DNA of 44,745 nucleotides from Elusimicrobia bacterium HGW-Elusimicrobia-1 (GTDB taxonomy: Bacteria > Elusimicrobiota > Endomicrobiia > PHAN01), in assembly GCA_002841695.1 (NCBI GenBank), contig PHAN01000013.1, forward strand, positions 1-44,745, in the 5' to 3' direction. Both the position numbers and the translations under genes were made by a program. The notes under the pieces are model-generated. The model did no database searches. It had not been told where the DNA came from and saw only the letters and a list, made by a program, of their open reading frames with translations. Each line of letters begins with the position of its first letter. Within the stretch, counting starts at the first letter, position 1. Shown one piece after another: positions 3-38,600 of this stretch.

Positions 3-704
3 TACGCGCAGAACTCCGCCGCGCTTGGAACGCGCGCGTTCGACGCTTTCGTCTCGACAAGAGCGGAGAATCAGACGGTGGGAGGAGTGAAAACTTTCAC
101 CGCACCGTCGGTTTTTCAGTCGTCGGTGTCATTTTCGAGCGCGACGTTTTCGGGGAATGTGGGTATCGGGGTCGCGTCGCCGCAAGGTAACCTGCATATT
201 ATCGGCAGCGCCGTTGACAAACCTTATATATTTGTCGCAAGCCACACAATCGGCGGATTCACACTAATGGTTTCAACCGACGGATATGTTGTTGTGGGAA
301 GTGATGTTAAGTTAAGCGGCAATAAATTCCAAGTGAACGGTTCTGCCGGCAAGACGGCAGGAGGCACCTCCTGGGCGGATTTATCCGACGCAAGATTAAA
401 AAATATCAAAGGAAACGTCGAAAATATTCTCGACAAAATAAATTCCCTGCGTCCCGTTAAATACGAATGGAATGACTTGCGTAAAAAGAAATTCGGCGAC
501 GACCCCGGCGTTAAATACGGCTTCGTCGCTCAGGAAATGAAAGAGATTTTTCCTGAATTTATCGGACAGGACACAAACGGATATTACACCTATAATCCCA
601 GCGGCTACGAAGCGGTGCTTACGGCGGCGATCCGCGAGTTGTCCGCTCTCGTTCAAAAACAGCAAAAAGAAATAGATGAACTAAAAAAAGGACGGCGCAA
701 ATAA
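3..704 (+). CDS. Tail-fibre-like protein with C-terminal S74 intramolecular chaperone (5' partial)
   Basis: The reading frame is open to the left edge of the window, so this is the 3' part of a longer gene. A GTG at 78 lies in the middle of a continuous fibre-like sequence (NQTVGGVKTF then GNVGIG) and is probably not the start. The last ~110 residues match the Peptidase_S74 chaperone found at the C-terminus of phage tail spikes and of many bacterial surface proteins. The motif SDARLK (Ser codon 384-386, Lys codon 399-401) fits the Ser/Lys self-cleavage dyad, followed by RPVKYEW, YGFVAQEM and FPEFIG. A short charged coiled coil (QKQQKEIDELKK) ends the protein. In this family the domain trimerises and folds the fibre, then is released by autoproteolysis. 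The natural role here, phage remnant or cell-surface fibre, cannot be decided from this fragment. Confidence 0.8.
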   Translation, partial: YAQNSAALGTRAFDAFVSTRAENQTVGGVKTFTAPSVFQSSVSFSSATFSGNVGIGVASPQGNLHIIGSAVDKPYIFVASHTIGGFTLMVSTDGYVVVGSDVKLSGNKFQVNGSAGKTAGGTSWADLSDARLKNIKGNVENILDKINSLRPVKYEWNDLRKKKFGDDPGVKYGFVAQEMKEIFPEFIGQDTNGYYTYNPSGYEAVLTAAIRELSALVQKQQKEIDELKKGRRK

Positions 705-729: not shown

Positions 730-2364
730 ATGTTTACATCCGCGACTCGATTAATCACGTTTCTTTACCACGAAGTAACCGACGACCCCGCTCTAAGCGG
801 CTTCCAAAGACCCTCCGCCCTGCCGTATAAACATACGTCAATGGAATTTATGAACCATCTTGACGCCATAGCCGCCGCCGGTCGCGCGCCGGCGCTCGTA
901 TCCACGGAATTCAAGCGCGCCGATTTGGACATAGCGTTGACCTTTGATGATGGAGGAAAATCGGCCATGTTTATCGCCGATACACTTGATAAACGCGAAT
1001 GGAAGGGCCACTTTTTTATAACCACGGGGATGATTGGCTCGCGCCATTTCGTGTCACGCGCCGATATAAAAGAACTGAACCGGCGCGGTCACGTAATCGG
1101 GTCGCATTCGCATACTCATCCGGATATTTTCAAAGATTTACCACCCGAAAGTATGCTCGCCGAATGGCGGAAAAGCAGGGCGATCCTGGAAGATATAATC
1201 GGAGAGAGAATAATATGCGCCTCGATTCCAGGGGGAGATTTGAACAATTCGGCCGAAAAGGTCGTCGCATCGGAAGGTTTTTTGTATCTGTTTACTTCCG
1301 AGCCGACTATGTATTCTTGGCGAATAGGCAATTTAACGTGTATAGGCAGGGTGTGTCCGAAAGCGGGAACTCCGGCAAAAAAAGTTAAACGCCTGGCGCA
1401 AGGATACGGTTTCGCTTCGGAAATGGCCGTCCGGCGATTGAAAAAAGTAACAAAGACATTGCTTTATCCCGCGTATAAATATATTACGGAGAAACACGCC
1501 GTTCCCATAGAGTCCGCCGGCGCGGCGGGCGCCAAACACAAAGCAAAACGTTTGAACGGCCTGCGAGTGGTATTGCTGGTAGGTCCGCGGGTGTGGCATA
1601 AGGCGACGTGCGCCACATTGATTGCGAGCGGAGCAAATGTGGTCGGCATTTGCACGGCGGATAAACTAACGATGGGCGTGCCACTGACGCATACCATACG
1701 CAACGTGCGCCGTCGGGGACTGCTGAAAACCCTCAATCAAATACTCGGACGCTTGTATTATCTCGCTCTGAATGCAGGAAAAGATCGCGTGGCGCTCCGA
1801 AACATTTTCAACGAGAGTCAAGCGGAAAAAATCATCGCCGAATGTGGATGCCCGATACACCTCACGACCGACTATTCCTCCGCCGCCACTATTAAATGGC
1901 TGAGAGAACTCAATCCCGACGTTTTTGTCGCACACACCGGATACTGGGTCGGTAAACAAGTCCGCGAAATTCCTTCCACCAAACTGACAATAGGCGGCCA
2001 TCCCGGCATCACACCTCAATATCGCGGCAGCCATTCCACTTTTTGGGCTCTTTATAAAGGACTAAGCAACCACGTCGGCTATTCGGTTTTTTACTTGGAT
2101 GCGGGAGTGGATACAGGCGATTTGATATTTCAGGAAACCATACCGATAGAAAAAAAAGACAGTTTTTTTACGCTCGGATGGAAAGGGATGAAGCGCATAG
2201 CTCAGGCACAGGCGGAAATCATCAAGAGAATGGACGAGGGCGACATAGTTGCAGGTCGTCCGCATAAGGAAATACCGGCGGGTTCCGAATACGATGTTCC
2301 GGGACTCACCGACTATCTGAGTTACGGCCTCTCTCCGAAAATACCTGTCAATAAGCGCGAATAG
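730..2364 (+). CDS. Polysaccharide deacetylase (NodB) fused to a formyltransferase
   Basis: A two-domain protein of about 544 aa. Residues ~10-230 form a NodB/CE4 deacetylase: LTFDDGG carries the metal-site Asp (D73/D74) and SHSHTHP the histidines (H126-H130). After a basic linker, residues ~275-540 form a formyltransferase of the GART/ArnA N-terminal type, with GGHPG, PQYRGSH, and GVDTGD carrying the catalytic Asp (D461). The usual Asn two residues before the catalytic His is Gly here (GGHPG instead of NxHPx). ATG 730 is preferred over GTG 715 because AAGGTGA at 712-718 is a suitable ribosome site. ArnA/ArnD-like chemistry on amino sugars (formylation, then deformylation) is a precedent for needing both activities, so a role in surface-glycan modification is likely. 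The actual substrate is unknown. It lies 25 bp after the S74 gene. Confidence 0.82.
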   Translation: MFTSATRLITFLYHEVTDDPALSGFQRPSALPYKHTSMEFMNHLDAIAAAGRAPALVSTEFKRADLDIALTFDDGGKSAMFIADTLDKREWKGHFFITTGMIGSRHFVSRADIKELNRRGHVIGSHSHTHPDIFKDLPPESMLAEWRKSRAILEDIIGERIICASIPGGDLNNSAEKVVASEGFLYLFTSEPTMYSWRIGNLTCIGRVCPKAGTPAKKVKRLAQGYGFASEMAVRRLKKVTKTLLYPAYKYITEKHAVPIESAGAAGAKHKAKRLNGLRVVLLVGPRVWHKATCATLIASGANVVGICTADKLTMGVPLTHTIRNVRRRGLLKTLNQILGRLYYLALNAGKDRVALRNIFNESQAEKIIAECGCPIHLTTDYSSAATIKWLRELNPDVFVAHTGYWVGKQVREIPSTKLTIGGHPGITPQYRGSHSTFWALYKGLSNHVGYSVFYLDAGVDTGDLIFQETIPIEKKDSFFTLGWKGMKRIAQAQAEIIKRMDEGDIVAGRPHKEIPAGSEYDVPGLTDYLSYGLSPKIPVNKRE

Positions 2365-2464
2365 TCGGAGCGGCGGAACTTTCCAGACTGGCTGGATAGA
2401 AGGTACCGGCGGCAACGAAACCCGCCCCGTAAACGCATATGTCAATTACATAATCAAACACTGA
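2363..2464 (+). pseudogene. C-terminal remnant of a tail-fibre-like protein
   Basis: Directly after the deacetylase-formyltransferase stop, another frame encodes GTFQTGWIEGTGGNETRPVN followed by AYVNYIIKH and a TGA (2462-2464). The NETRPVNAYVNYIIK pattern is typical of the extreme C-terminus of tail-collar/tail-fibre-like proteins. No start codon or body precedes it, because the frame runs back into the upstream gene. Its TGA overlaps the methyltransferase ATG (TGATG), so it probably was the 3' end of the gene once located upstream of the methyltransferase. It is too short for a functional product. Confidence 0.6.
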
Positions 2465-3201
2465 TGAAAAACAACGACATACAAACTTCCACTCGCGAGT
2501 GGTACAAAAACTACTACGCTAAAAAAGGCCCGGACAGAAACAATCCGCTCAAAGACAAAAGCGGGATTTTTCAGTTGCTGGCGCAGGAGAGAGCATTTAT
2601 TCGCGCCATGGCTTCGACGGAAATAAATCCGGCCGAGTCGACACTTTTAGACGTGGGTTGCGGAACCGGCTCAAGCATAATCAATTTCGTAAAACTCGGT
2701 TTTCTTCCGGAGAATATCGCGGGCATAGACATACTCGACGAGAGAATAGAAGGATGCCTCCGTGTATTTCCGTGCGCGAAATTCATCCGGGCGGACGCCT
2801 CAAAAATCCCGTTCGACGCAAACACGTTCGACGTAGTATCCGAATCCACGATGTTTATTTAATTAACCGACGAAAATCTTGCCGCCGCCATCGCTTCGGA
2901 AATGATAAGAACCCTTAAGACCGGCGGCTGTCTGATACTTATAGATTGGGTAGTCGGCAAACCTTTTAACAAAGAATACAGGGCTTTCACGAAACGCCGC
3001 CTGAAAAAACTTTTCGGCGTAGGCGAAAAAACCGTTTTGACGGGAATTTTTAACGGGCCGCTTGTGCCGCCCATAGGCAGGTTTTTGTCGGCGCGGCTTC
3101 CGTGGCTTTATTTCGCGGTTCAGACATTTTGTCCTTTTATGGTGGGACAAAAGGTGTTTGTGCTAAAGAAACTCTCAAAATTGAGGAGCGCACCGCAATG
3201 A
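2464..3201 (+). pseudogene. SAM-dependent class I methyltransferase interrupted by an in-frame TAA
   Basis: One continuous frame of 245 sense codons plus an internal TAA at 2860-2862. Before the stop, DVGCGTGSS is the SAM-binding motif I, GIDILDE is motif II and DASKIPFDANTFDVV is the post-II region. After the stop the homology continues without a shift: LTDENLAAAIASEMIRTLKT, GGCLILIDW, then GQKVFVLKKL. The residue at the stop is expected to be Gln (CAA) in relatives with a QLTD motif, so a single C-to-T change explains it. The first part alone (132 aa) would lack the late strands of the fold, and a restart at ATG 2902 would lack the SAM site. Relatives occur in surface-glycan gene clusters. 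The 3' end overlaps the next gene as ATGA. A sequencing error would restore an intact gene. Confidence 0.75.
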
Positions 3202-3897: not shown

Positions 3898-6279
3898 ATG
3901 GTCGACGGAGTTTACCGCGCGTTCCGCGCAAGGCCGTTATTTTGGGCGGCCGTCGTTCAGATAACTTTCATTCTTCTTCGGGGCGCCGAACGGATAGTGC
4001 CGCTCCCGCCTGAAAACCCGCCTCAACAAGAACTCTCCGTCGCAGGGAAAACCGAAAATAATAAGGACAATAACCAAGCTATCCGCGAAATCACCGGCGC
4101 AATAGCCGACTGGCCGCAAAAAAGGCCCAGAGGAATTAAAAGGTTTACCGTCGTGACCGCCGACGGCGAAAAAATCGCCGCGTTCATCGAATCCGCCGAC
4201 GGCAAACGCGCCGAAACCGCGTCCGGAATACCGCTTGCGAAAGGCGCGCGCGTAAAGTTGCGCGGATATTTCCGCCAACCGCGGAGCGCCCGCAACCCCG
4301 GAGAGTTCGACTATCGCGCATATCTTCTTACGCGCGGAATTCGCCGGACTTTCCGCGCCGCCCGCGGGCGCGACGACCCGTCGGCTCAGGATGCGGAGCC
4401 CCCCGTAAAAATAACTTCGCCCGCGGGCGCAATCAATTCCCTTGCCGACGCCGTGCGCGGCGCGACTTTGCGCGCCGTCGCCGAACACGTCCCCGACGAA
4501 GATTCGGCCGCGCTGCTTTCAAGAATGCTCATAGGCGAATCCTCCGACGGCACCGACGGAGACGAAGACCTGGAACGCTTCGCGTCATTAAGGGAAAACT
4601 TCGCCCTGGCCGGCGTCGCGCATGTTCTTGTAATATCGGGACTGCACGTCGGTTACGTGGCGGCGATATTCTGGTTTATTTTCCGGCTGAGCGGCCTGTC
4701 GAAAACAAACGCCGGAGCGCTGGCGCTGCCATTTATATGGATTTACGCTCTGGCGGCCGGCGGCACCACCCCCGTCATAAGAGCCGCAGTAATGGCCACA
4801 TCGCTTATGCTTTCGGCCGGCATCGGGCGCGGATACGACTCGTATCAGGCGCTGGGTTTGGCGTCTATCGTCACGCTGAGCGCAAATCCCGCGGACTTGT
4901 TCTCGGCCGGATTTCAACTCTCCTACGCGGCGACTTTCGGAATAATTCACTTCTCAAAATACACACCATCCTTCGTTAAAATCTCCAACCGCGCGGCCGC
5001 GTGGGTCGCGGGCATTATCTGGATGTCGTTCTCCGCCCAACTTTTCACCACGCCCCTTGTTTCGTCGTATTTCGGCCGATTCTCGACGGTGGCATTTATA
5101 TCGAATCTCGCGGTCATTCCGGCTGCAGGCATTGCCCTGGGCGCGGGAATAGCCGCGGTAATTTTTGATTTTATATTCCGTCCGGCGGCGGCATTCTGCG
5201 GTCTCATCGCGTCTGTCGCCCTGACTTCGGCATCGGCGGCGGTCAATTTTCTCTCGCACATCCCCAATGCCTCCATACCCGTCGCCTCTCCCGGAATGGT
5301 ATCGAGCATCGCGTGGTATTCGGGTTCGGTTTTTGTTCCGGTATTTCTGAAGATGAAGAAACTCTCAGCCGCCGCGGCGATTGGGATTCTTGCCGTCGCG
5401 CTTGCGGCAACCCCGTCGGATTTTTGGAATACGCGCGGCGGAGCAAGAGTGACTTTTTTGAGTTCCGAGGGGGAATGCGCGCTGATAGAGACACGGGACG
5501 CAAGAAATATTCTTATCGACGCGGGCGGCTTCTGGGATCCCTCGCGCTCCGCGGCAAAAGATTCCTACATCCCTTTTCTTCGCAAAAAAAATATCCGCGA
5601 ACTCGACGCGGTTTTTCTGACATCTCCTGAATTTTCAAGATACGGCTCGCTTGAAGAAATAATACGCGCGGTGCGCGTAAAACGCGTTTACGTCAATCCC
5701 GGAATTTCTCTGTGGCCGGAATACTTTTCTTTAATGGAAATGCTGGAAGAAAAAAAGATACCGGTGTCCGAGATATGGGCTCCCTGGCGCATGTCGGCGG
5801 GCGACGCCTCGATAATCGCGCTGAATCCCGCAATCAGACGCTCCGATACGTCCCGCAACGCGCTGGCGCTTTTGTTTGTATCGGGAAGAATGAAGATATA
5901 CTTCACGTCGGGCGCCGACGAGGTTTTCGAGCGGCGGATGTCCGAACGAATCAATCCGGGCGGCGGGCTTATAATAAAAATTCCAAGAAGCGCCCGACGG
6001 GGGGTGGATTCGCTGTTTGAAATGCTTCGTCCCGATTATGCTATAATCAACGCGAAATCGCCGGCGGCGCAATTACAACGCGGCGGTATGATTTTTTTGG
6101 ACGATACCGGCGCCGCTGAAGCCGGAATCGCCTGTGACGGCGGGATGATACTGAAATTATCGTCGCCGCCAAGGGCGGGAAAAATCGGGAATATCAATGA
6201 TGAAGAAAAAAATAAAAAAAATAGCCGTATACCACAGCATATCGCATCCGAAGGCGTTATCGACGGTAAAACGCCTTAA
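3898..6279 (+). CDS. comEC: ComEC/Rec2-family DNA-uptake channel protein
   Basis: A polytopic membrane protein of about 793 aa in the usual ComEC order: N-terminal hydrophobic segment, DUF4131-like OB region (GARVKLRGYFRQPR, FDYRAYLLTRGIRRTF), Competence domain with many membrane segments (VAHVLVISGLHVGYV), then a C-terminal metallo-beta-lactamase-like domain from ~residue 520 (LIETRDARNILIDAGG). ComEC moves single-stranded DNA across the inner membrane during transformation. The MBL HxHxDH metal motif (usually THPDADHIGG) reads TSPEFSRYGS (5620-5649), and the later TGD motif is also changed, so the presumed nuclease centre looks dead. The frame opens upstream (GTG 3859 and ATG 3778 are alternatives). 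ATG 3898 avoids a long overlap and sits just before the first membrane helix. No other competence genes are in the window. Confidence 0.88.
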   Translation: MVDGVYRAFRARPLFWAAVVQITFILLRGAERIVPLPPENPPQQELSVAGKTENNKDNNQAIREITGAIADWPQKRPRGIKRFTVVTADGEKIAAFIESADGKRAETASGIPLAKGARVKLRGYFRQPRSARNPGEFDYRAYLLTRGIRRTFRAARGRDDPSAQDAEPPVKITSPAGAINSLADAVRGATLRAVAEHVPDEDSAALLSRMLIGESSDGTDGDEDLERFASLRENFALAGVAHVLVISGLHVGYVAAIFWFIFRLSGLSKTNAGALALPFIWIYALAAGGTTPVIRAAVMATSLMLSAGIGRGYDSYQALGLASIVTLSANPADLFSAGFQLSYAATFGIIHFSKYTPSFVKISNRAAAWVAGIIWMSFSAQLFTTPLVSSYFGRFSTVAFISNLAVIPAAGIALGAGIAAVIFDFIFRPAAAFCGLIASVALTSASAAVNFLSHIPNASIPVASPGMVSSIAWYSGSVFVPVFLKMKKLSAAAAIGILAVALAATPSDFWNTRGGARVTFLSSEGECALIETRDARNILIDAGGFWDPSRSAAKDSYIPFLRKKNIRELDAVFLTSPEFSRYGSLEEIIRAVRVKRVYVNPGISLWPEYFSLMEMLEEKKIPVSEIWAPWRMSAGDASIIALNPAIRRSDTSRNALALLFVSGRMKIYFTSGADEVFERRMSERINPGGGLIIKIPRSARRGVDSLFEMLRPDYAIINAKSPAAQLQRGGMIFLDDTGAAEAGIACDGGMILKLSSPPRAGKIGNINDEEKNKKNSRIPQHIASEGVIDGKTP

Positions 6280-22189: not shown

Positions 22190-22400
22190 AAAAAAACCGC
22201 GACTGTCGTCCGGCCTTGTCACCGGACGGCAAACGTCGGAGCTCCCGCTCTGCGGGTTTTGAGGTTTGCGGTGCGCGCTTAGCCGCCATAGGGCTCTGTC
22301 CTTTTGAGCCCTTCAAGTATGAGCATGCTCACACTTGGTATTCCTCCGCCCGTGGTTCATTTATTTCTTTATCCGCCGGGTTCGGCGACGCCTGCGAAGA
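22190..22400 (-). ncRNA. Candidate omega-RNA region at the 3' end of tnpB
   Basis: On the minus strand this is the 3' end and downstream flank of tnpB, where IS200/IS605-type elements encode the guide RNA. It contains four stable hairpins in a row: AAGTATGAGC/GCTCACACTT (22315-22336, over the stop codon), GGGCTC/GAGCCC (22291-22311), CCCGC/GCGGG (22244-22256) and CGTCCGG/CCGGACG (22207-22228), then a run of T (minus strand) near 22190. The exact ends and guide start cannot be defined from one copy. Confidence 0.4.
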
Positions 22401-23579
22401 TTTTTTTGGCTCCGCGACGGCCGGCGACGGCGCAATGCCGAGCATAGCCGCGCCCCTTGATGCTATGTTTCTGGCCGCGTTTAGGTCGGCGCTGACGGTG
22501 TGGCCGCAGTTGACGCAGCTGAATTTTTCCGGCGACGGCCTGTTTTTGCCGGCTCGCCATCCGCACACGGCGCAGGTTATCGACGTCCCGCCCGGATCGA
22601 CGGTAACCGACTTTATGCCCGCGAGACGGGCCTTGTAGATTATCATCGCGGCCAGTCGCCTGTAAGACCATCGCCATACGACCTGAGGCGGCAAGCTCCT
22701 GTCGTGGCCGCCTCGTCCGAGCAAACGCTCTTTGAGACCGTTGAGATTTTCAAGCGCAATGGCCGCTCCCTGCGAAATGACCAGATTTACGAGGTTCCTG
22801 CTTATGTGATGGTTGACATTGTCGGCCCGCCTCATGTTTTTTCGCCTTTCGGATCTGCTTTGGAATTTTCCGGCCGTCAATCCGTGAAAAATCCCGCTTA
22901 AAACCCCCGAACGAAAAAATTTTCCGCCCGAAGTCACGGCGGGGTGCCGCACGCCGAGGTCGACACCCGTCACCGACGAAAATTTATCATAGTGTATGAG
23001 AATTCTCAGCGATACGGACAAACACCACCGGCCATCGGGTTTGCGGTAAAGCTCTGCGGGGCCGGACTTAAAATCCGCGTCGAGGTATTTCAGCGCGTAA
23101 GGCCGCGGAGAGACGGGAACGACAAGATATTTTTTTCGACCCGCTTCGATAAGAAATCTTATCACGCGGTTGCCGCGATGCGTTCTGCCCCAGACGTAGG
23201 CGTCCTGCCTTAATACAATCGGGACAAGCCCGGCGGTTTCAGGACGGGTAGTGTGTTTGCGGTGTCTCACGCGCGACCAGAATATCCGCTGCATAGAAAC
23301 GGCTTTGTCTCGGGCGGATTGAATCGCGGCGCTACCGAGGTCGAATTTTTCGCGCGCCTCGGCGTTGCACATCATATGAAGCTTGTAGGGGCTTGAAGTG
23401 TTGAGTTCCCTGGATTTATCCAAAAAGAAAGTCACGCATTTCGTGAACGCTTTTTGATAATTCTCGAGTATTTTTCGTTTGCGCTTTGAAAGGTGAGGAA
23501 CGGAAAGTGTCAGGGCGATATATTGAACGTCGTCGGAACGCGGCGATGAAACGGCGAGTTTTGAGAACAGTGAGGGCAT
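22329..23579 (-). CDS. tnpB: TnpB, IS200/IS605-type RNA-guided nuclease (solitary)
   Basis: 416 aa with complete RuvC centre: D207 (GVDLGVRHPAV), E277 (ALENLNGL) and D365 (SADLNAARNI). The zinc ribbon cysteines are C336/C339 (CAVCG) and C355/C358 (CVNCG). TnpB is an omega-RNA-guided DNA endonuclease that helps IS elements persist and is the ancestor of Cas12. No TnpA (Y1 transposase) gene is in the window, so the element is either a solitary derivative or depends on another copy. It lies between the ORF6N pseudogene and the giant FN3 gene and is the only convincing minus-strand gene. Confidence 0.94.
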   Translation of the reverse strand: MPSLFSKLAVSSPRSDDVQYIALTLSVPHLSKRKRKILENYQKAFTKCVTFFLDKSRELNTSSPYKLHMMCNAEAREKFDLGSAAIQSARDKAVSMQRIFWSRVRHRKHTTRPETAGLVPIVLRQDAYVWGRTHRGNRVIRFLIEAGRKKYLVVPVSPRPYALKYLDADFKSGPAELYRKPDGRWCLSVSLRILIHYDKFSSVTGVDLGVRHPAVTSGGKFFRSGVLSGIFHGLTAGKFQSRSERRKNMRRADNVNHHISRNLVNLVISQGAAIALENLNGLKERLLGRGGHDRSLPPQVVWRWSYRRLAAMIIYKARLAGIKSVTVDPGGTSITCAVCGWRAGKNRPSPEKFSCVNCGHTVSADLNAARNIASRGAAMLGIAPSPAVAEPKKSSQASPNPADKEINEPRAEEYQV

Positions 23580-23634: not shown

Positions 23635-26600
23635 ATGAGCGTGGAAAAGGTGTTTACAAGGTTATCTATCTTATCCATCCTTCGCGCAAGCGCGGCGTCC
23701 GTCGTATTTGCGGCGGTTCTGTCCGTCTTCGCGCCGACGGCGGCCGTCGCCGTAAACACCCACGTCATACGGGAAACTTCCATAGTCCAAAGAGGTTCCG
23801 GCGCATTTCGTCTGGAACTCGATACCGCCGCCGTCTTTCAAATTGCGGCCACCACCAACGTCCCCGTAACAGTCACTCTCTGGCTCCGCTACAACGCATC
23901 GTACAACACCGGCTCGGGGTATCCCGTGGTGTCTCTGGAAGGTCTGGGAGTAAGCCACTTTTCCACGGCCACCGCCAACGCTCTCGACGCCTGGGAAATG
24001 CTCACCGTATCCGGAACACCGACCGGACAGGGCGTAATAAACCTTACGGTAAAATCATTCTCGTCAGCCGGCGGCTCAAAAGTTTATTTCGACGAAATCG
24101 TGGCCATTTCGACCGAGGCCTACACCGGCGGAGGCGATTTCTTTACCGCCTCGACCGACGAAGCCGACGAGGAGCCAATAAAAACCCTCTATAATGCTCT
24201 CGAAGAACCGCGCCTTTACACCGGCAGCGGCGACTTTTTCATCTTTGAATCCTCTTATCCCGCCTCCGCTATTTTCCAGAAATATTATGAAACGCCGACG
24301 GCCTCGACCGGCTCTTTCGCAACCGCAATATCATCCACGGCGCTTCAATGGAACTGGTCGGATAATTCTTCGGGCAAGAAACAGGAAGAAGAATTCCGGA
24401 TATATTCTTCGACGGGCGCGCTCAAAACCACGAAGGCGGCCAATGCCACTTATTGGGACGAACCCGGCCTTAGCCCAAACACTACCTACTTTCGCTTAAT
24501 CCGTGCGTGGAACGTGGTGGGTTCAAGCGATACGGGAATAATCTCGGGCGTCACACTCGCGCAGGCGCGTCCGGTTGATTCTCTTACGGCGCTGTCCGGC
24601 TCGCAGATAAGAGTAAACTTTGCCGGCGGCGACAATCCGTCGGGCACGCTTTACGCGATAAAAGCCGTTGTCGGAGAATTGACCTATTATGTAAACTCGG
24701 CCAACTCTCAACTGACCGGCTCGCCGGATTACCAGACACTTGCCGCGTGGGGAGTCCCAAGGGACGTCTCCGGACTTTCGGGCAACACGCTTTATAACTT
24801 CAGCGTCGTGGCGAGAAATCACGCGGGTTCAATAAACGAAGGCGAAGGTAATTCAAAATCCACACTCGCCAACAAACCCGTCGCGCAGTCGTTCAACGAC
24901 AACTTCATCACGACACATTCGGTAAGATGTTACTGGGACGCCAACGGCAACGGCGGCGGCACGACTTACCGCGTTCAGATGTCGACGGCCAACGATTTTT
25001 CGGTGATAAACGCCACAAAGACCACCAGCGCGGGCATATATCTGGACTTCGACGGTCTTTCGGCCAACAGCGGCTACTACTTCCGCGTGTGCGCCCTTAA
25101 CCTTGAAAGCGAGCCGACGGCTTTCGAGAATCTCACGTCGGTCGGCCCCAAATATACGCGCATAGAAAGCCCTGTTCTTACTTCTTCGCAACTGTCAATG
25201 TACGTTTCATCGACGGTCGTAAACTTCGGCGCGCAGAGTTTCACAAAACTCTCCGACGGTTCCAGCGGCATACAGTTCGAGGAGTCGGGCTCCGAAGGCG
25301 GTCCGTGGACGAGCGGGTGGGAAAAGAACAAAATCTGGACCCGCCGCGCCGACAACCCCACATCCGCGCCGGCGCTTCTTGCCAACACCACCTACTCATT
25401 CCGCGCGCGCTCCCAAAATATCGCCGCGCTGGGAAATGATTATACGGATACCATCGTCGCGGCCACGAAGATAGAGCCCGTTTTTACTATGGAATGGATA
25501 ATCGGCTCATCGAGCATAGGCGTGCGCGCGCTTCCGTCGGGCGGAGGAAGTTTCAGCAACATCTCATCCGGCCTTTCGGCGATAAACTACACTATATGTG
25601 TAAACACTTATCAATGGACTAATACCGGTGTTTCGAGTTCCGCGTGGATACAAAGCGGCGACTATTTTTATTTCACCGCATACACGGGCGCCAACGACGC
25701 AATAACGTCCAACACAACTTTTTATTTCATATCGAATTCGCGCAACTACGACGGTGTTCTCAATTCCACAATAACCCACATAACCAAGGTGACACTTCCC
25801 GCAACGCCGCTTGCCCCGACGGTAGGTATGCCGGCGGGAGACCCGCTGAACCGTCTCGGCGTCGAAATACCGGATGAGACGCCTTTGAATCCCGCCGAAA
25901 CGCAGTATGCGGTGGCTCTTTCCACAATGCCTTCCGGAGTTCCCGTATATTGGGTGCAGACAGACCGCTCCACCGGCGTCGCCGCAGTTTGGCGGACGAA
26001 ATCCGGCTGGAACACCGATTTGTGGGGCGCCGGCGCGGGAGTGGGCGTAAAAGATCTTTTGTGGAATACGAGTTATTATGTGCGTGTCAAAGCCCGCAAT
26101 TCTTCGGAAGAGCAAACTTCTTTGGGCGCGGCGACGCACAAGACGACCTACGCCGGAATGCCTTATGCCATCGCTCTTTCGACGGCATCGGGCGTAAGCG
26201 GACGGCTCGACGCATACTGGTCTCCGGCGGACGCGGCGGCAAATTACCGCGTTCAGATAGTAAGCGCGGCGGTCGGCGATACCTTCGGCAACTTCGACTA
26301 TGTTTCCGGCGATTCCGGCTGGATGGGTTTAAGCAGCCACACTTTCACGGGTCTCGGCGTCAACAAAAAATATTTCGTCAGGGCGATATCCCGCAACCGC
26401 GACGGCGTGAACCGTTCCACCGGCACTGCAGCCAACTGGACCACCGACGGCGACAAATACGCTTTCACGCTTCCCGACATCCCCGTCGGCGTTAACATAA
26501 AATACGACATCGGATACACTTCGGCCGCGATAGTATGGTCGGAAGGTTCCAATCCTCCGGGCACGGCGACGAAGTATTCCGTAGAAATAAGTTCAAGCGC

Positions 26601-29600
26601 GTCGTTCCAATGGATAACCGATTCGGAAGCGAATTTCTCCGAAACTATTCCGGAGAAAAAGTTTATCGGTTTATCGAAAAACACCGTGTATACCGCCCGC
26701 GTTCGCGCCAAAAATTATGACGGCGGAAATCCGGGCGCGTGGGTCGCGACGGGTTCGTCGTGCACCCTCATAGAAACGCCCCTTTCCGTAATCGCCTCGA
26801 ACATAGCGCAAACCAACGCCACGCTTACCATAAACTGGGAGAACTCTTTTGATTTATCCGATGCCGGCGGCGACGGAAGCCGCTGGTTACTCAATAAAGA
26901 AAGTGATTCAAACACTTACGATTCCATCAAATATCCCACCGAACAGGACGACTACTGGCGCGACGGCCAATCGTGGACAGTTCAGGACATATTCGGCGCA
27001 AGCAACGGGACATTACAAGCCAATACCACCAACCAGTTCCGGGTAAAAGTCAGAAATAAAGACAAAGTCGAAACGCCGTGGATAACGTCGAGCGTTATGT
27101 GCAGCAAAATACAAAACCCCACGGGCGTTACGCTCGTTGAAGCCACAACCTGGTATGTAAGAGCCAAACCCGCCGGAACTTTCTCCAATCTGGGCGCGGG
27201 GACAACCGCCTCGGCCGTCGCAGTATGGAAAACCGGCGAGTCGGATCCCGACGACGAAGCCGCCGCCGGCGCGCTCTGGAAGACGAACACCGACGACTAT
27301 CGTCAATTCGACGCCAACCCCAACGCCGAGATAATTTTTTACGCCAAGGCCAGAAATAAATTTGCGGTGCCGTCTTATTGGGGCACATCGAGCGCCCCGA
27401 CGGCTGCGACGTACTACACATTGGCCGAAATTCCGCCCGCTCCGACACTATCCGGAATGACCACCGGATCCCTGCGCGTCAACATCCTCACCGCCGAAAA
27501 CCCCGGCGTCACACTTTACGCCGTAAAAATCACCACCTCCGGCGGAGCGGACAGATGGCTTAACTCCGCCGGAAACATAGCGGCATCGCCCCTCTGGCAG
27601 ACCGAATCCCAATGGGAAGGCGCCGACGGTTACAAAACCGCACAAGGCCTTACGCCCAACACTTCCTATTTCATAAGCGTGGCCGCCAAAAATCAGGCAG
27701 GGTCGATTACGAATTACGGAGGCGTTTCGGCGAAGTGGACTTTGATAGAAGCCGTCTCGTCGGCGGCCGCCATAGAAATAGGTTCCTCTACGGTAAAAAT
27801 TCAGGCGTATCCGACGGGCGCGGCGGGATATACCAATCTCGGAAGCGGCTCGTCCCATTTGAGAATGGCCGCCAATGTCGGAGCATTCCCCGAAGTGCCC
27901 TACGAGACGGTGGTCTCCACGAATGTTTTTGAGTTCACCGCTCTGGCGGCCAACGCCGAGCATAATTTTTACGCCAAATCCTATAACGGCGAGGATGTCG
28001 GATCGGGAGCGTCCGGCGGAGTATCCCTCTCAACCGCCACAAGAATACAACCCGCGTCGGGCGTGGCATTCGGCGCCGTAACCAACGCCTCTATAGAGGC
28101 GCGCGCGGCGGGGGATTTCTCCAACGTAACGGCTTCCACCAGCGGCCTTATAGTTTACAAGACGTCTCCCGCGCCCGCCGAGGATTCGGGCTGGCAGAGA
28201 AATACAAACTTCTGGCAATTTTCGGGACTTCAGCCGAATACTACTTATTACTTCAAGGCCAACTCCCGCAACATCTACGGACTGCCCAACACCGAAACAG
28301 TCATAATTTCCACCATCACCCGCGCCAACGCGCCGAGCGCGCCGACGGTCTCGATAGTATCAACCGATTCTTTGAATGTTCTCATCAACGAAAACTCCAA
28401 CCCGCCCGCCACCGAGTTCCGGATACTGATATCTTCGACCAACTGGGCGATTACCAAATACATCCAGGCCAACGGCTCCGTCGGAGACGCGGCCATCTGG
28501 CGCACAAAAGCCAACTGGGGCGGCGACAACGGCATCGACGTGACCGGCCTTACTCCCAACACTCAGTATAGATTCAAAGTTACCGCGAGAAATTATCAGG
28601 GCGCCGTGACGGCGGATTCTTCGGAGTCGTCGCGCTACACCAAGATTCAGATGCCCGAGGGATTCGACTACGAAATATGGCGCACGTCGGTATCCGTGAC
28701 TGCCACCGGCGATCTTACAAACGTAGAATCGCTCGGATGGATTCAGTTCGGCCGCACGGCCAACGGCCTTTCGTGGACGGACACGTCGGACTTAAACGGC
28801 ACGGGCGTTCAGACGTACGCGTGGACGGATCTGGCGGCCAACACGACTTATCAGTTCCGCATCCGCACGAAAAACGCGATGTTAGACGCCGTCAACGATT
28901 ATGTCGTCGACAACGCGACGGCCACCCGCATAGAGAGCGTGGCGGCTTGTCTTGCGACGGTAAATTCTTCCTCGCAACTTTCGATAGCGCCCTCTAACGC
29001 GGGAGCGATGAGTAACCTTGCCGTCGGACAATCCGGATGGCGCATGCGCATTCAGGACGGCGGCACGGATGAAATCAGCTATTCCGAGTGGCGAAACGAC
29101 ACTGTGGCGATATCGTCTTCCGGACTTAAGCCCAACGCGCCGTATAACATGTCGGGGCAATCCAGAAACCGGCTGGGGCTTGTCAATCCGTGGTCGGCGT
29201 GGTATTCTACGTACACTTACGCGAATGTTCCGTCGAGTCCGGTCGTTCAGGCGGTTTCGGGTTACGATGACCGGCTTAAAATCATAATAGACGATTTCGC
29301 CAACGCGGGCAATCCTTCAAGCACACTTTTCCGCATAGAAATAAGAAAAGTCGATGGCGGCTCGTGGGATGTGAATCAAAAGTTCATACGGGATATCGGA
29401 GGGCTTTACTACATAAGCGACAACGTGTCTGACGCCGCGTACAAAACCCGCTCCGACTGGGGCGCCGAGGCCGGTTCGATAATACGCTCGCTTGAAAGCA
29501 ACGTGGAATACGCCCTGCGGCTCGTCGCGCGCAACGCTTACGGACATCTTACCGCAGCGGGCGCTGAGACAAAGAGAAAAACGCTGCCCGGAAAACCCGC

Positions 29601-32600
29601 AAACGTTACGGCGGTTCCCGCCGGCGGATATGAGACGAGCCGCATAGCCATATCGTGGGATTCCAACGCCGCGCAGTACAGAGTACAGCACGCGACATCG
29701 GCCGCAGGCGGATGGCTCGACGTATTCACGGCTTGGGCGCTGACCTCGGCTTCGACGGTACACTACTCGGTAACGCCGTCGTCCCAGGTGTTCTACCGCG
29801 TTATGGCCAGAAACACGGATATGTCCGAAACCGACTGGTCGGACGTGACTTCAACTTACACGTGGGCGGCCGCTCCGGGCGCGTCTTACCTGATGTACCC
29901 GTCGACTTATTCTCTTAAAATCGAGTGGGTCGCTTCGGGCAATCCCGCCTCGGCGCAATATTACGCCGAGGTCTCGATAGATTCCACGACATTTTCCGGA
30001 GCATCGGCGTCGGGATGGATTTCCTCGACATCCACCGTCATAGAATCTCTCGCTCAAAACAACAAGTACTACTCGCGCGTCAAGGCCAGAAATCCCGCCG
30101 GCGTTTCGACGGCGTGGGGCGATGTGTCGGCCTACAAGTATACGCTTATCGCCGATTGCACCGACGTGGTTATGCTCTCAAATTCCGTTAATTCCATTCA
30201 GGTCAAGGGTGTGCCGGAACCGGTCAATCTGGGCGTGGACTATAATTCGACCGGCATCGATTTCAAAAATCTCTCGACGGGAACTTCGTCTCAGTGGATA
30301 CAGACCAACTCGTGGACGAACAATACCGGACTTGGCGCCAACTGGGTTTACTCTTACCAGGTGCGTGTAAGAAACGGCGACGGCATCGGCGGCGCGGGCG
30401 GATGGCTTCCCGACGGAGGGCGCAATATAGCCACGGCGATGGAAAGTCCGACCGGCGTTACGATACTCTCCGTGAGTTCGCACAGCATATCTGCGCAAGT
30501 AAGCCCGACCGGAAGCTATACGCAACCTACCATCGATGAGAGCGGGCTGGCCATAGAATGTCACGCCAACGCGGCATATACTTCTTTCGTATCTTCGAGC
30601 GGATGGAAACAAGACCAGAACACTCAAGGGCTATTCTCCTTGCTGGCGGCCAACACCACCTATTATTTCCGCGCCAAATCGCGCAATAAACTCGGAGCGG
30701 AATCCGACTGGTCCGGCTTCGGCTCGACGGTAACGCTCTGCGCCCAACCGATTCAGGCAAGCCCCGCCGACATATCGTCGGGTTCGTTTGTCGCCAAATG
30801 GGGCGACGGGGGAAATCCGGGCGGCACGCGATATGAATTGTGGCATTCGACGAGACCCGATTATTTCGTCACCGCTTCGACAATAACCACGGCAAATGAC
30901 TACACGGCGGCGGGACTTCTGGCCAACTCCACTTATTATTCGAGAGTACGCGCGCTCAACCGCGCCGGCACGCCGACGAACTGGACGGACTTAAATTACG
31001 TGATAACAAAAATCGAGACGGCGGCCGGAATAGAGTTTGTTGACGTTACGACGGGAAGCATACGCGGCAAGGCGGAGGGCTCCTTTACCTATATTACTTC
31101 GGGCGATTCCGGATGGCTCATCGAAAACATCATCGCGGGCACGAGTTCCCAGTGGCAGAACACGGAGCCCGCTTTCTGGCTTTCGGCTGCCGATCCGAAC
31201 AGCGACCTTACGGAAAACTTAAAGGCCTCCAAGCAATACACCTTCCGCGCGCACACCAGAAACCGCGCGGCGGAAGCCACTCCCTACGTTCAGGTTTCCA
31301 CGTGGACGCGCGCGCGGGCGCCGGGATACGACAATTTGAGCCAGATAGCCGCGGGAACAATCCGCGCCAACTGGACCGTCAACGAAAACGAAAACGCCCA
31401 GTATTATGTCGAGTGTTCCACCAAAGACAATTACTCGGTGGCCTTCGCCACGCGCAACTGGGGCGCGGCCATAAATTATCTGTTTACGGGACTCAATCCC
31501 AACGAAAGATATTATTCCCGCGCAAAATCCAGAAATACCAACGTCGGCGGGTCGGACACGGACTGGACTTATCTGCCGTCGAGCTACACCCTCATACAGA
31601 ATATAACATCGGCGGCGTTTCCGTCGGTGGGCGTAACTTCCATAACGGTTCAGGCCTCGGCGCCGTCGAATATTACGGCGGGCGCAAGCGGAATGGTATT
31701 CAAATGGTCGACCGACGACTTCGTCGGAAATGTTACGTCGACGACTTTCATACAACAAACTTCCACTGCTATTGCGTCTCTTACCCCGAACACCACCTAC
31801 TATTTCAGATTCATAACAAGAAACGGCGACGCGCAGGAAGGATCCGAATCCGCGTCGTGGGCCAAATCCACGCTTGCTCAGGCGCCGCCTCAACCCGTAA
31901 TATCCAATCTGTCCGGCTCGTCTCTGCGCGTAACCATCAACACCGGAGCTAACTCCGCGCACACGCTTTATTCCATAAAGACCGTAACCGGCAACACGAC
32001 TTACTACGTCAACGCTTCCAAACAACTCGCCCCCGAAGGCGAAACGCAATGGGCCACGACCGCGGGATGGAACTCACCGTTTGACATCACGGGGCTTACC
32101 GGCAACACTCAGTACACGGTATTCGTAAGGGCCAAAAACTCCGAGGGTACCCTTACTTCATACTCCGCGTACGCGACGTCGTCTACACTGGCCGACGTGC
32201 CGGGTCAGCCGGGACTGGTGGTGCTCTCGACTCATTCGATAAACGTCGTCGTAAGCGAAGGTCTTAATTCTCCGGAGACGGAGTTTGCCATAGCCGTAAG
32301 CTCCGACGAGTGGGCGACTTCGGCCTATGTTTCTTCGTCGACTTACGAAACTATCACTTACGAAAATTGGACAACCAAAACCGGCTGGGGCGGAGTATCC
32401 GGCAGGGCTCTGGGCGCAAGGCGTCCCAATACCGGTTTCTCGTACAAAGTCATAGCGCGCAATAAAGACGGAATAATGACGGCGTGGTCTTTGGCCAATC
32501 AGAAATACACAAAAATAGAAACTCCGGAAGGCATAAATTTCCAGGTGGGGACAACCTCGGCAAGCGTGGCTCCGGTGGGCGATTTCACCAAAGAGCCCGG

Positions 32601-35600
32601 AGAGCAGTGGATAAGATACAGAAGAAACTCCACTTACGCCAACTGGACGGACGCCGCCGTCTACGACTGGACAGGCCTTACGCCTAATACCACTTACGGT
32701 TTTTACGCGCAGACAAGAAACAAGGAAAATCTTGAAAACTCGATGGTCGGGCCCGTCGACAACGCCACGCTTATAGAGCTGCCCTCGTCGATGTCGTTCG
32801 AGATTTATTCGTCCTCGATTTACGCCCGCCCGTCGGGAACGTTTACGAATCTTGCCGCCGGCGACGCGGGAATAATCGCGGTAAGACAAGGCGACGGCAC
32901 GCAGCTTTGGCAAAACACCACGAATTACCAATGGACTTTCGACGGCCTCGACCCCGCCACGGCCTACAATTTCCGCGCCAACTCCCGCAACCGTTACGGC
33001 ATAGCCAATTCTTCGACGGGATGGATTACGCGCTACACCCTGCCGGCGGCGCCTCCCGCTCCGAATCTTACCGGAGTAAACGCAAGTCAGTTATCGCTTG
33101 AAATCAACGAGGGCGCAAACGCCGGAAGTCCCAACGTCGCTTATGCCGTCGGCGTATCGACGGCCGCGAATTTCAACACCGTCAAGTTCGCTTCATACAC
33201 CGGCACCGGATACGTCACGGCAACCGCCCCGCAGTGGCGCAGTTACGACGACTGGGGCGGGGTGCTCGGCTTTACGCTCGGCTCTCTGTCGTCGAACACG
33301 ACTTACTACATAGCGGTAAAAGCCCGCAATCCCGACGCGATGGAAACGGCTTACTCCTCTGTCGTCAGCACCCGCACCAAGATAACCACTCCGTCGTCGG
33401 TAGAGTTCGTGTCTCTGGGAGTAACGAGTTCTACGGTAAAAGGCGCGAATCCGGAAATATCGGGATTTGAAGCCGGCGATGCGAGCGGCATCAATTTTGA
33501 GGTTTTCGTCGACAGTTACGCAACCTTGATATCGAGCAGCAACTTCATAAAGGACAATCTCTGGACGATAGAAGGCCTCGCCGGCAACACCACTTACTGG
33601 TGGCGCATAGTAACCCGAAACCCCGACGGGTCGCTCAACACCGCAAATAAAGTCGGGGCGACCGCCCAAAGAATCGAGTCCGTGGCCTATCCCATATTCA
33701 GGGTGGAAAGCGCCAACGCCATACAGGTGGCGCCGTCTCCGTCGAATTATTCCGAAATAGAAACGGGCGTTTCGGGCATAGCGTTCTATGAGACATCGCT
33801 GTCGACGACGAGCGGATGGCGCAAGACGACCGACTACTGGACGCTATCGGCGCTGTCGCCCAACACGCAGTATTCGTTTTACGCCAACTCCAGAAACAGA
33901 GCGGGGCTGGCCAACACTCCGACGCCGACGATTTCCACATACACTCTGGCCAACGTTCCTCTGACGCCGGGGCTTGCGGCAATGAGCGTATCATCCATAA
34001 ATATCGTCGTAAACGAAAACTCGAATCCGGCCGCGACCATATTCGCCATAGCAGCCAGCTCCGACAACTGGGCCACCACAAAGTTCATCGCCTCGAACGG
34101 AATTTTTGCGGATACGGAAACTTGGCGCACGCGCTCCGAGTGGGGCGGCGGATCGGGTATTGTCAGCGGCGGGTTGGAGGCCAACAGGCAGTATCGCTTC
34201 AAGACGAAAGCCCGCAACCAGTCGGGAATCGAAACGCAGTATTCTTTGGTCTCGTCCAAGTTCACTCTCATCGAGCGTTCCACTAACGCTGTGTTCAGTC
34301 CCGTAACGGAAACCGCCATAACGCTGGCCGGAACGCCGACGCCGAGCCGTCTTACTACGGGAGCGATTTTCTTTGAGAACCAGACGACATCCGCCAATTC
34401 AGGATGGCTAACCACCAATTCGTGGCCCAACTCGGGACTTTCGACCAACACTCTTTATAACTACACAATAACCACCAAAAACGGCGACGGCGCTCTCAAT
34501 GAGTCAAGCGATATTCTGCCCAGAGCCACCAGAATCGAATCGCCGGGTTCCATAGAAACCATTGAAACTCTGGAAACGTCCATCACTCTTAAGGTCAAAA
34601 ACGCCCAGGGCGGAAATGCGTTCTCGAATCTTACGTCCGGCGATTCCGGCATATACTTCTGGGGAATAAACATCTCCACGAATTCCGGCTGGATACAACA
34701 GACCACGTGGACTCTGACGGGTCTTTCTCCGTCGACAAAATACGGCTTCAACGTAAAAACCCGCAACCGCGACGGTCTCATCGAATCCAATCCGCTGGCC
34801 GACGGCTCCACTTTCTACACGGCTCCCGAAGCCGTCTCAATAAATTCTCTTTCCACCGGCGACCCGACCGATACGGCCATACACCTTATGATTTCGTCCG
34901 GCACCAACGGCATTGAAACCCTTTATCAAGTTGCCGTCTCTACGGTCGAGGGCTTCGCGTCGGGTACGACTTATTACGTCGATGCCACGCTGGGAATACT
35001 TGTAACGAATCCGAATACGACATGGAACATACACGACGTATGGCGCAATGACGGCGGCGGCAAAAATGTGGCGGAACTTTCCGGCAACACGATGTACAAC
35101 TTCAAAGTAAGAGCGAAAAATCCGCAGAACACGATATCCCCGTGGTCCGCCGTCGGCCAGCGCTCTACCAATTCAAGCGCTCCCGAGAATCTTGCGGCCG
35201 CGGCGCTGTCTTCATCGACGATAAGAATAACATGGACGGGCACGGGGCCCAAGTATCAAGTGGAGCGCGCGACATGGAACGCGCCCTCGGCGGTCGCGCC
35301 CCAGACGAACGGCTGGACAAGAATTTCCGATTGGAGCGCGGGCGCTTCTTTCGACCACGAAGGCCTGAGCGCCAACGTGCGCCGCTGGTACCGCGCGCGA
35401 GCCGGCAACGACGGGGACGTCGGCGTGAGCAACTGGGCCGGCAATAACGTCAACCGCTACACGCTTGCCGCGCTTCCGGCGGCGGCGGCATTCGCCGACG
35501 TTTCATCGTCGGAAATCCGCGCCGGCTGGACTTCGGGCGGCAACCCCGATCTTACCGAGTACAAAGTTTTCGTCTCGTCGGCAGGCGTCGGCGTCTCGAC

Positions 35601-38600
35601 GATAACATCCTACGGTTATACGCCCGACCTCGCGTCGCAACTATTCCAATTCCTTGACTTGAACACGACCTATTACTTCTGGGCCCGCGCCAGAAACGGC
35701 AACAACATAGAGTCCACCGACCGCGTCCTCGGCTCGACTTCCACGCTGTGCGCCGCTCCCGCCGCCCCGTCGATGGTAGCGGCTTCGACGCACACTGTTT
35801 GGGTCGGCATAAACGACGCGGGAAATCCGCCGTCAAGCAAATATGCCCTGAGAATAAGTTCGCCGAACGGGATTCTTCGCTACGCTCAGAATGACGGCGC
35901 TCTCGGTGATACACCTTTCTGGAAAACAAAATCGGATTGGTTGGTGTCCGGTTCGACCGTCGTCGGCCTTCTGACGAATACGTCGTATTTCGTTGATGTG
36001 AGCGCTCTCAATAACAACGGCATCGCTACGACTTTCTCCGCAGGGTCGGCGAAATTCACCTACGCGGCGGTTCCTCAGGCGGGCTCGTTTGCAGTATGGA
36101 CGACCTCGATAACGGCGAACTTCGCTTTCGCGGGAAACCCGCAAAACACGTTTTATCAGGTGCGTCGCGCCACACATTCGCAGATCACGGGTTCCGTCGA
36201 AAATGCCGACGGCGTAGATATAACGTCGGGGACCTTCGCGTCGCTTAACCCCAACAACCGTCAATGGTTCTGGGCGAGAGCGAAAAACGGCGACAATATC
36301 TGGAGCGACCACGCTTCCTTAGGCGCCAAATACACCCGTATCGAGACCGCGTCAAATATGAGTTTCGCAGTTCACTGGACGTCGATCACCGCGACCGCGG
36401 CGGACAGTTTCACTTCCTTAGGCGACGGCGAAAGCAGAATTATTTTACGCGAAACCAGAACCGTCCAGTCCTCGACTCACACATCGAGCGGGAATTTAAA
36501 TTGGACCTGCGACGGCACGCTTGCGCCCAACACGACCTACGGATTCACCGTGCAATCCTTCAACGGCGACGGCCTCGCCAACGCCGAAAGCGCCGTGACT
36601 CTCAAAGCCACGCGCATAGAAAATCCGACGGGTCTTGAGTTTATCGAAACCTCGACGTGGTATGTGAAGGTCGCTCCCCGTAACGAGTTCAGCTCTCTTA
36701 ATGTCGGGCTTTCCGGCGTCGAGATACAGAGAACCGGCTCGGCGGATTCAAGCGGCTATCAGAACTCCACCTCGGCGTGGACGAACAACGGGCTCGACGC
36801 TTCGCGCATTTACTACTATCGCGCCAGATCCAAAAACCGCGACGGCCTTGCCAACGACTGGTCGAACGCATTCTCGACTTACACAAGAGCCAATCCTCCC
36901 GCCCCCGGGTCGCCCTCGATTCCGGGCAGAGGCGTGAATTTCATAGAAATCAACTGGTACGAAAACAACAATTCCACTTATACCTATTATTACGTCGAGG
37001 GTTCGTCGGTGTCATACGGCGGCGAGCCCACCAACGCCAGCGGCTGGCTGCCCAATACCACCTACTATCTTCTTAATCTTGTGCCCAACACATCTTATTA
37101 CCTCAGAGTCAAAGCCAGGAACGCTTCAAACATTGAAACCGCCTGGACCCAACTCGGCGCGGCGTGGACCAATATAGAATTCGTCACCGGCATTTCTTTC
37201 GACGGAGTTTTCCGCACAAGCGCCACGCTGAGCGCTTTGGGCGGCCCTTTCACCAGGGCCGGCGCGGGCCTCTCCGGAGTTTCCATAGGCGTATACAGAG
37301 ACGAATATTACACCGAATTGCGCAGTTCCAAACCATACGACGCGAGCGCCGCTCATACACCCGTCAATCTTGTCGCCAACACCACATACTACTTCACCGC
37401 CAACTCACGCTCCGGCGACGGCGATGAAAACGAATCCGTCGGCACGCTGAGTTCTCCGATAAGCAAGATAACTCTCATCGAACGCCCCGCCGGAGTCAAG
37501 TTCGGCGCGATAACCAACACCTCGATACAGGCCGCTCCCGACGGTAATTTCACCAATCTTTCGTCGACGGGTTCGGGCGTGATAACTTATTCGCTGAGCG
37601 CTTCCACCAATTCCGGATGGCGCGGCACAACATCGTACTTCACAATTTCCGGCCTTTCGCCCAACACCGTTTACACATTCAAGGCCGATTCCAGAAACCG
37701 CGCGGGCGTCGCAAGCGGGGAAACACTCAACGTATCGACGTACACACTGGCAAGTTCGCCTCTGGCGTCGGTATTCACCGGAATCACGACAACTACGGTA
37801 AGAGCGAGTTGGACGGCCGGGCTGCCCGCGAATCCGGAGAATACCGAATATTACGTCGAAGCGTCGTCGGTATCGCCCGCCGGCCCGTACAATTATCACA
37901 ACGGATGGCAGACAAGCATTTACCGCGACTTCGACAATCTTTCGCCGAACGTAAAATATTATTTCCGCGTCAAATCGCGCAACTTCGCCGCCGCCGAGTC
38001 CGAGTGGGTGGATCTTGGAATGAAGTATACCCTGATAGAGCAGGTAACCTCGGCGAACTACGCCGTGTATCCGTCGAGCATAAGCATAACCGCCTCGCCC
38101 CAGCCGTCCAATCTCGACGAAGGGAGTTCCGGAATAATATTCACGAACCTCACCACGGGCGTAAACTCCACCTGGATAACCAATATCAGTTACGTATTCG
38201 GCTCGCTGACGCAGAACACGACTTACCAGTTCCGCGTGAACACCAAAAACGGCGACGGCGTATCGAATACCGCCTACAACCTGCCGCTGTCGTGCACACT
38301 GATAAATCCCGCGACCGGCGTCGCGTTCGGAAACTTCTCGGCCACGACCGTAGATGTCCGCGGAGCGGGGAACTTCCCGTCGAACCTGGGCGCGGGACTT
38401 TCGGCCGTAGCCGCCGAAATCCGCAACGCCGACCTCGACTACTCGTCGCACGTGTGGGTGCCGTCTGAGAATACGCACACGTTCGTGGGACTTTCCACGA
38501 ACACCGCTTATACTTTCCGCGCTAACTCCCGCAACCAGTTCGGCGCAAGCCCGTCGTCGACATCGTGGGTTACCAGATATACTTTGGCGGCCACGCCCGG

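Follow-up and report, generated by a model that had tools for sequence, protein, structure and literature searches.

Asn, His and Asp form the textbook signature of folate-dependent formyltransferases, and in the canonical members Fmt, PurN, ArnA and WbkC the catalytic Asn stands two residues before the His. ArnA and ArnD provide a formyltransferase and a NodB-fold deformylase in one and the same pathway. In the rhizobial NodB-NodA system an N-acetyl group is removed and the amine is re-acylated, NodA, a member of another family, adding a fatty acyl chain. Deacetylases of the PgaB/IcaB type act outside the cytoplasm; formyl-tetrahydrofolate (formyl-THF) is cytosolic. In FDH the Asn is replaced: PMC4388273 describes the hydrolase domain of this enzyme as functional with Ile at the Asn position, and names Leu83, Cys86, Ser87, Phe89 and the Asn-replacing Ile104 as its contacts to folate. 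Citing Reuland 2006, the same paper states that full-length FDH retained less than 10% of its hydrolase activity when the Ile was changed to Asn (PMC4388273). Loss of the Asn is thus compatible with folate chemistry, because FDH has Ile there.

The window analysed here is a stretch of 44,745 nucleotides from Elusimicrobia bacterium HGW-Elusimicrobia-1 (contig PHAN01000013.1). Near its start lies a gene in which the original prediction, made from the letters alone, had recognised a NodB deacetylase and a formyltransferase in one chain. Both domains gave Pfam matches above the cut-offs: Polysacc_deac_1 (PF01522) at residues 67-184 (72.4 bits, cut-off 23.1) and Formyl_trans_N (PF00551) at residues 385-483 (46.7 bits, cut-off 26.1). 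The reading frame extends from ATG 730 to the TAG at 2362-2364 with no internal stop. An earlier start at GTG 715 is possible, but this codon lies inside a Shine-Dalgarno-like AAGGTGA (712-718). Pfam found in the window protein no match to Formyl_trans_C, to the UDP-glucuronate dehydrogenase domain of the ArnA C-terminal type, or to the carrier and aldehyde dehydrogenase domains of the FDH/ALDH1L1 type. The GC content of the fused gene (0.507) is a little below that of the window (0.543). The features of the gene are as follows:

730..2364, plus strand: fused NodB deacetylase / formyltransferase-fold protein, 544 aa (open frame; PF01522 and PF00551 above cut-offs)
748..1509, plus strand: NodB/CE4 domain, about residues 7-260, PgaB/IcaB-like fold (alignment A2, model, PDB matches)
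940..954, plus strand: TFDDG, with Asp73-Asp74 of the deacetylase metal site (F72, D73, D74 and G75 invariant in 14/14 rows)
1102..1122, plus strand: SHSHTHP, the deacetylase H-x3-H with His126 and His130 (both His invariant in 14/14 rows)
1510..1563, plus strand: Ala-, Gly- and Lys-rich linker of ~18 residues, corresponding to the junction of separate genes in relatives
1564..2343, plus strand: formyltransferase-fold domain, about residues 279-538 (alignment A1, model, PDB matches)
1933..1935, plus strand: His402, closing the strand that precedes the G-G-H strand and possibly standing in for the Asn (residue counts; model strand 131-135)
1963..1965, plus strand: Arg412, invariant in the GG clade (see below) and found in none of the other rows compared (residue counts)
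1993..2007, plus strand: GGHPG, with Gly422 at the Asn position and the catalytic His424 (alignments)
2020..2028, plus strand: YRG (motif coordinates)
2104..2121, plus strand: GVDTGD, which contributes the catalytic Asp461 and belongs to the D-x-G-x-D-T-G folate loop (alignments)

Structure prediction, which had been proposed as a check, gave a formyltransferase fold for the second domain (mean pLDDT 86.2, pTM 0.86), and its PDB matches included Fmt (Z 18.1, rmsd 3.3, 216 residues aligned), the FDH hydrolase (Z 17.1), ArnA (Z 16.9) and WbkC (Z 15.9). The model of the NodB domain (mean pLDDT 85.0, pTM 0.84) matched its nine best chains, BA0330, BC0361, PplD, IcaB and PgaB among them, with Z scores of 23-26, and ArnD with Z 13.5; those matches with an rmsd of at most 3.0 covered about 205-216 aligned residues. 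With WbkC and the N-terminal domain of ArnA the second domain shares the fold, the catalytic His and Asp and the folate loop, whereas it has Gly in place of the Asn and is not followed by a Formyl_trans_C match, and a NodB domain takes the place of ArnA's dehydrogenase. The FDH hydrolase has the same fold and is likewise devoid of the Asn, but the window protein has Gly and not Ile at this position, carries no carrier or dehydrogenase domain, and has a sugar deacetylase as its partner. The NodB domain has the fold and the metal-site motifs of the CE4 deacetylases of the PgaB/IcaB/PplD type; unlike these, the window protein has no signal peptide that could be seen by eye, and the deacetylase is fused, or coupled as a neighbouring gene, to a formyltransferase-fold partner. 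At the position of the NodB motif-3 Arg the window protein has Ser; this Ser165, in the segment S-[IV]-P-G-G, was invariant in all 14 NodB rows of alignment A2.

When the domain is aligned with solved chains, GGHPG has its first Gly opposite the Asn of WbkC and Fmt, or the Ile of FDH, and its His opposite the catalytic His of all three. These alignments are gap-free inside the motif, some of them having a one-residue gap two to three positions upstream. They bear out the earlier reading that Gly occupies the catalytic Asn position while His424, the YRG segment and Asp461 are kept.

Relatives were retrieved by the formyltransferase-fold part alone; the NodB half was not used. A degenerate DNA pattern (G-x-H-P-G-x-T-P-x-[YF]-R-G) was scanned over 84,980 species genomes and yielded 18 stretches, every one of which encodes a relative of residues ~279-538 (38-50% identity, with E values no worse than 1.9e-39; in two the ORF is partial). 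They belong to Gemmatimonadetes, Fuerstiella and another planctomycete, Flavobacteriaceae, Moheibacter, Alpha- and Gammaproteobacteria, and Terriglobia. Profile searches that did not require the Gly, run over 18, 289, 297, 249 and 246 partly overlapping genomes, added one further member, L105 (GAHPG, 300 bits), and the next best matches had at most 125 bits. PF00551 was matched by 19/19 rows of alignment A1 at E <= 0.01. In a tree of 57 rows (20 GG, 10 CP, 18 Asn-keeping and 9 fmt rows; L067 and L071 were left out) the window protein and its 19 relatives formed one clade, the GG clade, with support of 100/99. The independent lineages number fewer than 20 because several rows are close kin (L056/L057 and L043/L044/L045).

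Gly stands at the Asn position in all 20 GG rows; for the 18 found with the pattern the constancy of Gly and His is by construction, since the pattern required both. As the same Gly is carried by 19 related genes in other genomes, it is not a base error, and comparison of the sequences confirms that it is real. His424 and Asp461 were found in 20/20 GG rows, the Asp without having been required by the pattern, and Asp461 also occurs in 10/10 CP, 18/18 Asn-keeping and 9/9 fmt rows. Five residues that were not part of the search pattern are identical throughout the GG clade: His402, Arg412, Ser436, Asp461 and Trp484. Arg412 was absent from the CP (0/10), Asn-keeping (0/18) and fmt (0/9) rows, while Ser436 recurred in two and Trp484 in one of the 18 Asn-keeping rows. 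With such clade-invariant residues, some of them absent elsewhere, and with 20 rows in one clade, the suggestion of a distinct subfamily is supported. The altered chemistry suggested with it may or may not apply: the His, the Asp and the D-x-G-x-D-T-G loop are retained, and the hydrolase domain of FDH functions with Ile in place of the Asn. His402 is a candidate for the role of the missing Asn; in the profile alignment it immediately precedes the position matching FDH Cys86. The idea that it is unique to the GG clade was rejected: none of the CP (0/10) or fmt (0/9) rows had it, but it was present in 2/18 Asn-keeping rows and so does not mark the replacement cleanly.

In the phylum of the window the DNA pattern occurred in one of 340 genomes, the window's own, and among the matches listed in 98 other genomes none contained both domains. 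A horizontal gain of the gene is therefore likely. The survey of fusions that had been called for found the GG fusion in this single assembly. Viral contigs gave two pattern matches with the protein query, none of which was confirmed, and no match with either of two DNA patterns. Three phage records each covered one domain, and none of 89 plasmid records covered 80% of the query. At E <= 1e-25 one of 289 genomes of the class of Primorskyibacter was matched, namely the search centre itself.

In all 19 GG relatives the two parts are separate genes, mostly neighbours, and no fused GG copy was seen outside the window. When the flanks were lengthened and a profile was used, 16 of the 19 had a NodB gene adjacent, just upstream; in one (L058/L082) the cluster also contains it, ~4 kb upstream, and two (L045, L048) are at contig ends. 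In a first pass, tblastn had matched the NodB half in 14 of the 18 pattern loci, the match in one of these 14 (L039) being partial, at the edge of the piece. A second Asn-less clade, CP (10 rows, 100/100), has the motif [V/A/I]-x-H-[P/T/D]-G-x-[C/A]-P-E-Y-R-N-A-H-G. Here NodB is adjacent in 9/10 loci, the tenth (L095) being at a contig end, and the formyltransferase-like gene comes first, in the order opposite to that of GG. The two clades are not sisters in the tree, with moderate support at this point (87/85, 88/81).

Altogether 58 loci were scored for NodB: 19 GG, 10 CP, 26 Asn-keeping and 3 GAHAS. None of the 26 Asn-keeping loci had a NodB of the A2 type at 190 bits or above, and nine had some NodB match at E <= 1e-5. 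Four of the nine (L061, L094, L104, L111) match by construction because they are in the profile seed; in L094 the match lies in the same ORF, and that of L112 is weak (26 bits). No NodB was found near the GAHAS loci (0/3). Two simple rules were tried and rejected. That loss of the Asn generally goes with a NodB partner is contradicted by L068, L070 and L071 (GAH; NodB near in 0/3) and by Palleronia L022 (GFH; none among the listed neighbours), and that NodB pairs only with Asn-less forms is contradicted by the nine Asn-keeping loci. The genes in L068, L070 and L071, from three planctomycete genomes, are formyltransferase-like with GAHASLLPHNRG and have Gly at the Asn position. L022, on a Palleronia plasmid, encodes a formyltransferase (4935-5858, plus strand) with GFHPAPLP, again with Gly at the Asn position, which keeps Formyl_trans_C; the sugar cluster around it includes a DegT-type aminotransferase, and the listed neighbours include no deacetylase.

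A reverse search was started from NodB over 217 and 216 genomes, with ~1.5 kb inspected on either side, or less where a contig end lies close (L129). Matches of at least 190 bits lay beside a formyltransferase-like gene in 5/5 cases, matches of 125-177 bits in 0/12. The search is not independent, since all five are in genomes already found by the formyltransferase route. The phylogeny of the NodB partners (46 rows) placed those of 12 GG rows, the window included, and of 9 CP rows in one clade (99/98). The partners of five Gemmatimonadota GG genes formed another NodB lineage (100/99; other GG partners 99/96), which adjoins NodBs with no formyltransferase-like gene near (L126, L127; 94/91). One ancient inherited pair does not explain these data, because the GG partners are split between two NodB lineages. 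If the tree is right, GG and NodB would have been joined at least twice, or the partner was swapped.

A fusion of the reverse order, formyltransferase-NodB with the Asn kept, is encoded by L094 (1426-3156, plus strand; genome G832, of the phylum of the Terriglobia locus). It lies ~2.3 kb upstream of a gene pair in the same genome, an Asn-less formyltransferase-like gene and NodB (L092).

The pairing of neighbouring genes says more about function than the fusion does by itself, and it suggests an undescribed swap of acetyl for formyl on sugars. Our main reading, to which we assign a probability of roughly 0.5, is that the window protein is a cytoplasmic two-step enzyme tailoring amino sugars, which would take N-acetyl off and then put N-formyl on. 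The NodB/CE4 domain would deacetylate an N-acetylamino sugar in a glycan precursor, which may be a free nucleotide sugar or, at the membrane's inner face, a lipid-linked sugar. The second domain would then cap the freed amine with a formyl group from N10-formyl-tetrahydrofolate, yielding an N-formyl sugar, and the work of the Asn may be done by His402, Arg412 or other residues of the clade, or by the backbone. The sequences show the two domains in one chain, the retained metal-site and His/Asp residues and the conserved gene pairing in relatives; we infer the folate donor, the sugar substrate, the order of the steps and the replacement of the Asn. Because formyl-THF is cytosolic and no signal peptide was seen by eye, deacetylation is probably intracellular and on a precursor. 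The logic resembles that of NodB-NodA, in which deacetylation is also followed by re-acylation of the amine.

In favour of the two-step enzyme, the best structural matches of both domains include active enzymes of both kinds. Among the neighbours, ten proteins were scanned from 4 of 13 fetched clusters: glycosyltransferases were found in L078, a bacterial sugar transferase, a GHMP kinase and a nucleotidyltransferase in L082, an asparagine-synthase-type amidotransferase in L073, and an AAA_31 protein, the sole protein scanned there, in L085. Several observations count against it: in L075, L076 and L081 the pair lies among genes that by eye are unrelated to glycans, the Asn used by transferases is missing in 20/20 members, the motif-3 residue of NodB is Ser in 14/14 rows, and enzymes of the PgaB/IcaB type work outside the cytoplasm. 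We found no assay of any relative.

A different formyl acceptor is a serious rival, which we nevertheless consider unlikely. Folate would be used as in FDH, the formyl group moving to a thiol, water or another acceptor and not to the amine freed by NodB. FDH is among the best fold matches and works with Ile at the Asn position, where Asn lowers hydrolysis, and HypX is proposed to formylate CoA with a changed triad (PMC6802093). The window protein, however, has no carrier or dehydrogenase domain attached, and hydrolysis alone would hardly explain the steady link to a sugar deacetylase.

Rather improbable is a course of events as in the Arn pathway, in which formyl would serve as a temporary cap, put on at the outset and later taken off by the NodB domain acting as a deformylase. 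The formyltransferase-like gene does come first in the CP clade, and ArnA and ArnD provide the precedent; yet the NodB model is closer to BA0330, PplD, IcaB and PgaB than to ArnD, and the two activities in one chain would cancel out unless a step intervenes.

The original prediction had also offered a second domain that is catalytically dead and merely binds sugar or folate for the deacetylase. The loss of the Asn in two clades would fit, but in the 20 GG and 10 CP rows the His, the Asp and the folate-loop D-T-G are nearly or fully invariant, unlike a decaying site, and we regard this alternative as disfavoured and improbable. An assembly or base-calling artefact joining two overlapping genes is the least probable: the fusion was seen in one genome only and the two genes overlap or nearly touch in many relatives, but the frame runs stop-free through the 18-residue linker, and L094 shows that a fusion of the opposite order exists elsewhere.

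The two-step reading can be extended, tentatively and with more doubt than confidence, to an N-acetyl-to-N-formyl exchange module that would have been assembled more than once from NodB and two Asn-less formyltransferase-fold clades, with other GG residues (candidates His402 and Arg412) replacing the Asn and the window chain passing the amine on directly. The Asn-less clades, which keep the His, the Asp, the folate loop and a deacetylase partner, are a natural test of the role of the Asn. If the exchange reading is true, a signature of two genes could make N-formyl sugars in bacterial glycans predictable, including those of phyla with little-studied surface glycans. The fold families are already known; what is new is a variant within them, an Asn-less clade coupled to NodB, and its activity is predicted. 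Searches of 5.39 million open-access papers gave no description of such a pair among the papers listed (titles and the starts of abstracts), which is weak evidence of novelty because most subscription papers lie outside that scope.

The fused gene is preceded, at a distance of 25 bases, by a gene (3-704, plus strand) for a protein whose C terminus carries a Peptidase_S74 (endosialidase chaperone) domain. Just downstream lies a SAM methyltransferase-like gene (2464-3198, plus strand) with an in-frame TAA at 2860-2862, beyond which the frame is open to ~3198; the interruption may reflect a pseudogene, an assembly error or a recent mutation. Farther along, a single ORF of 6,495 aa (23635-43122, plus strand) encodes a giant surface-type protein that contains fibronectin type III domains and, near its end, a Big_5 domain. 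It is directly adjoined by a gene on the opposite strand (22329-23579, minus strand) for a TnpB-like protein with a Cas12f1-like TNB domain.
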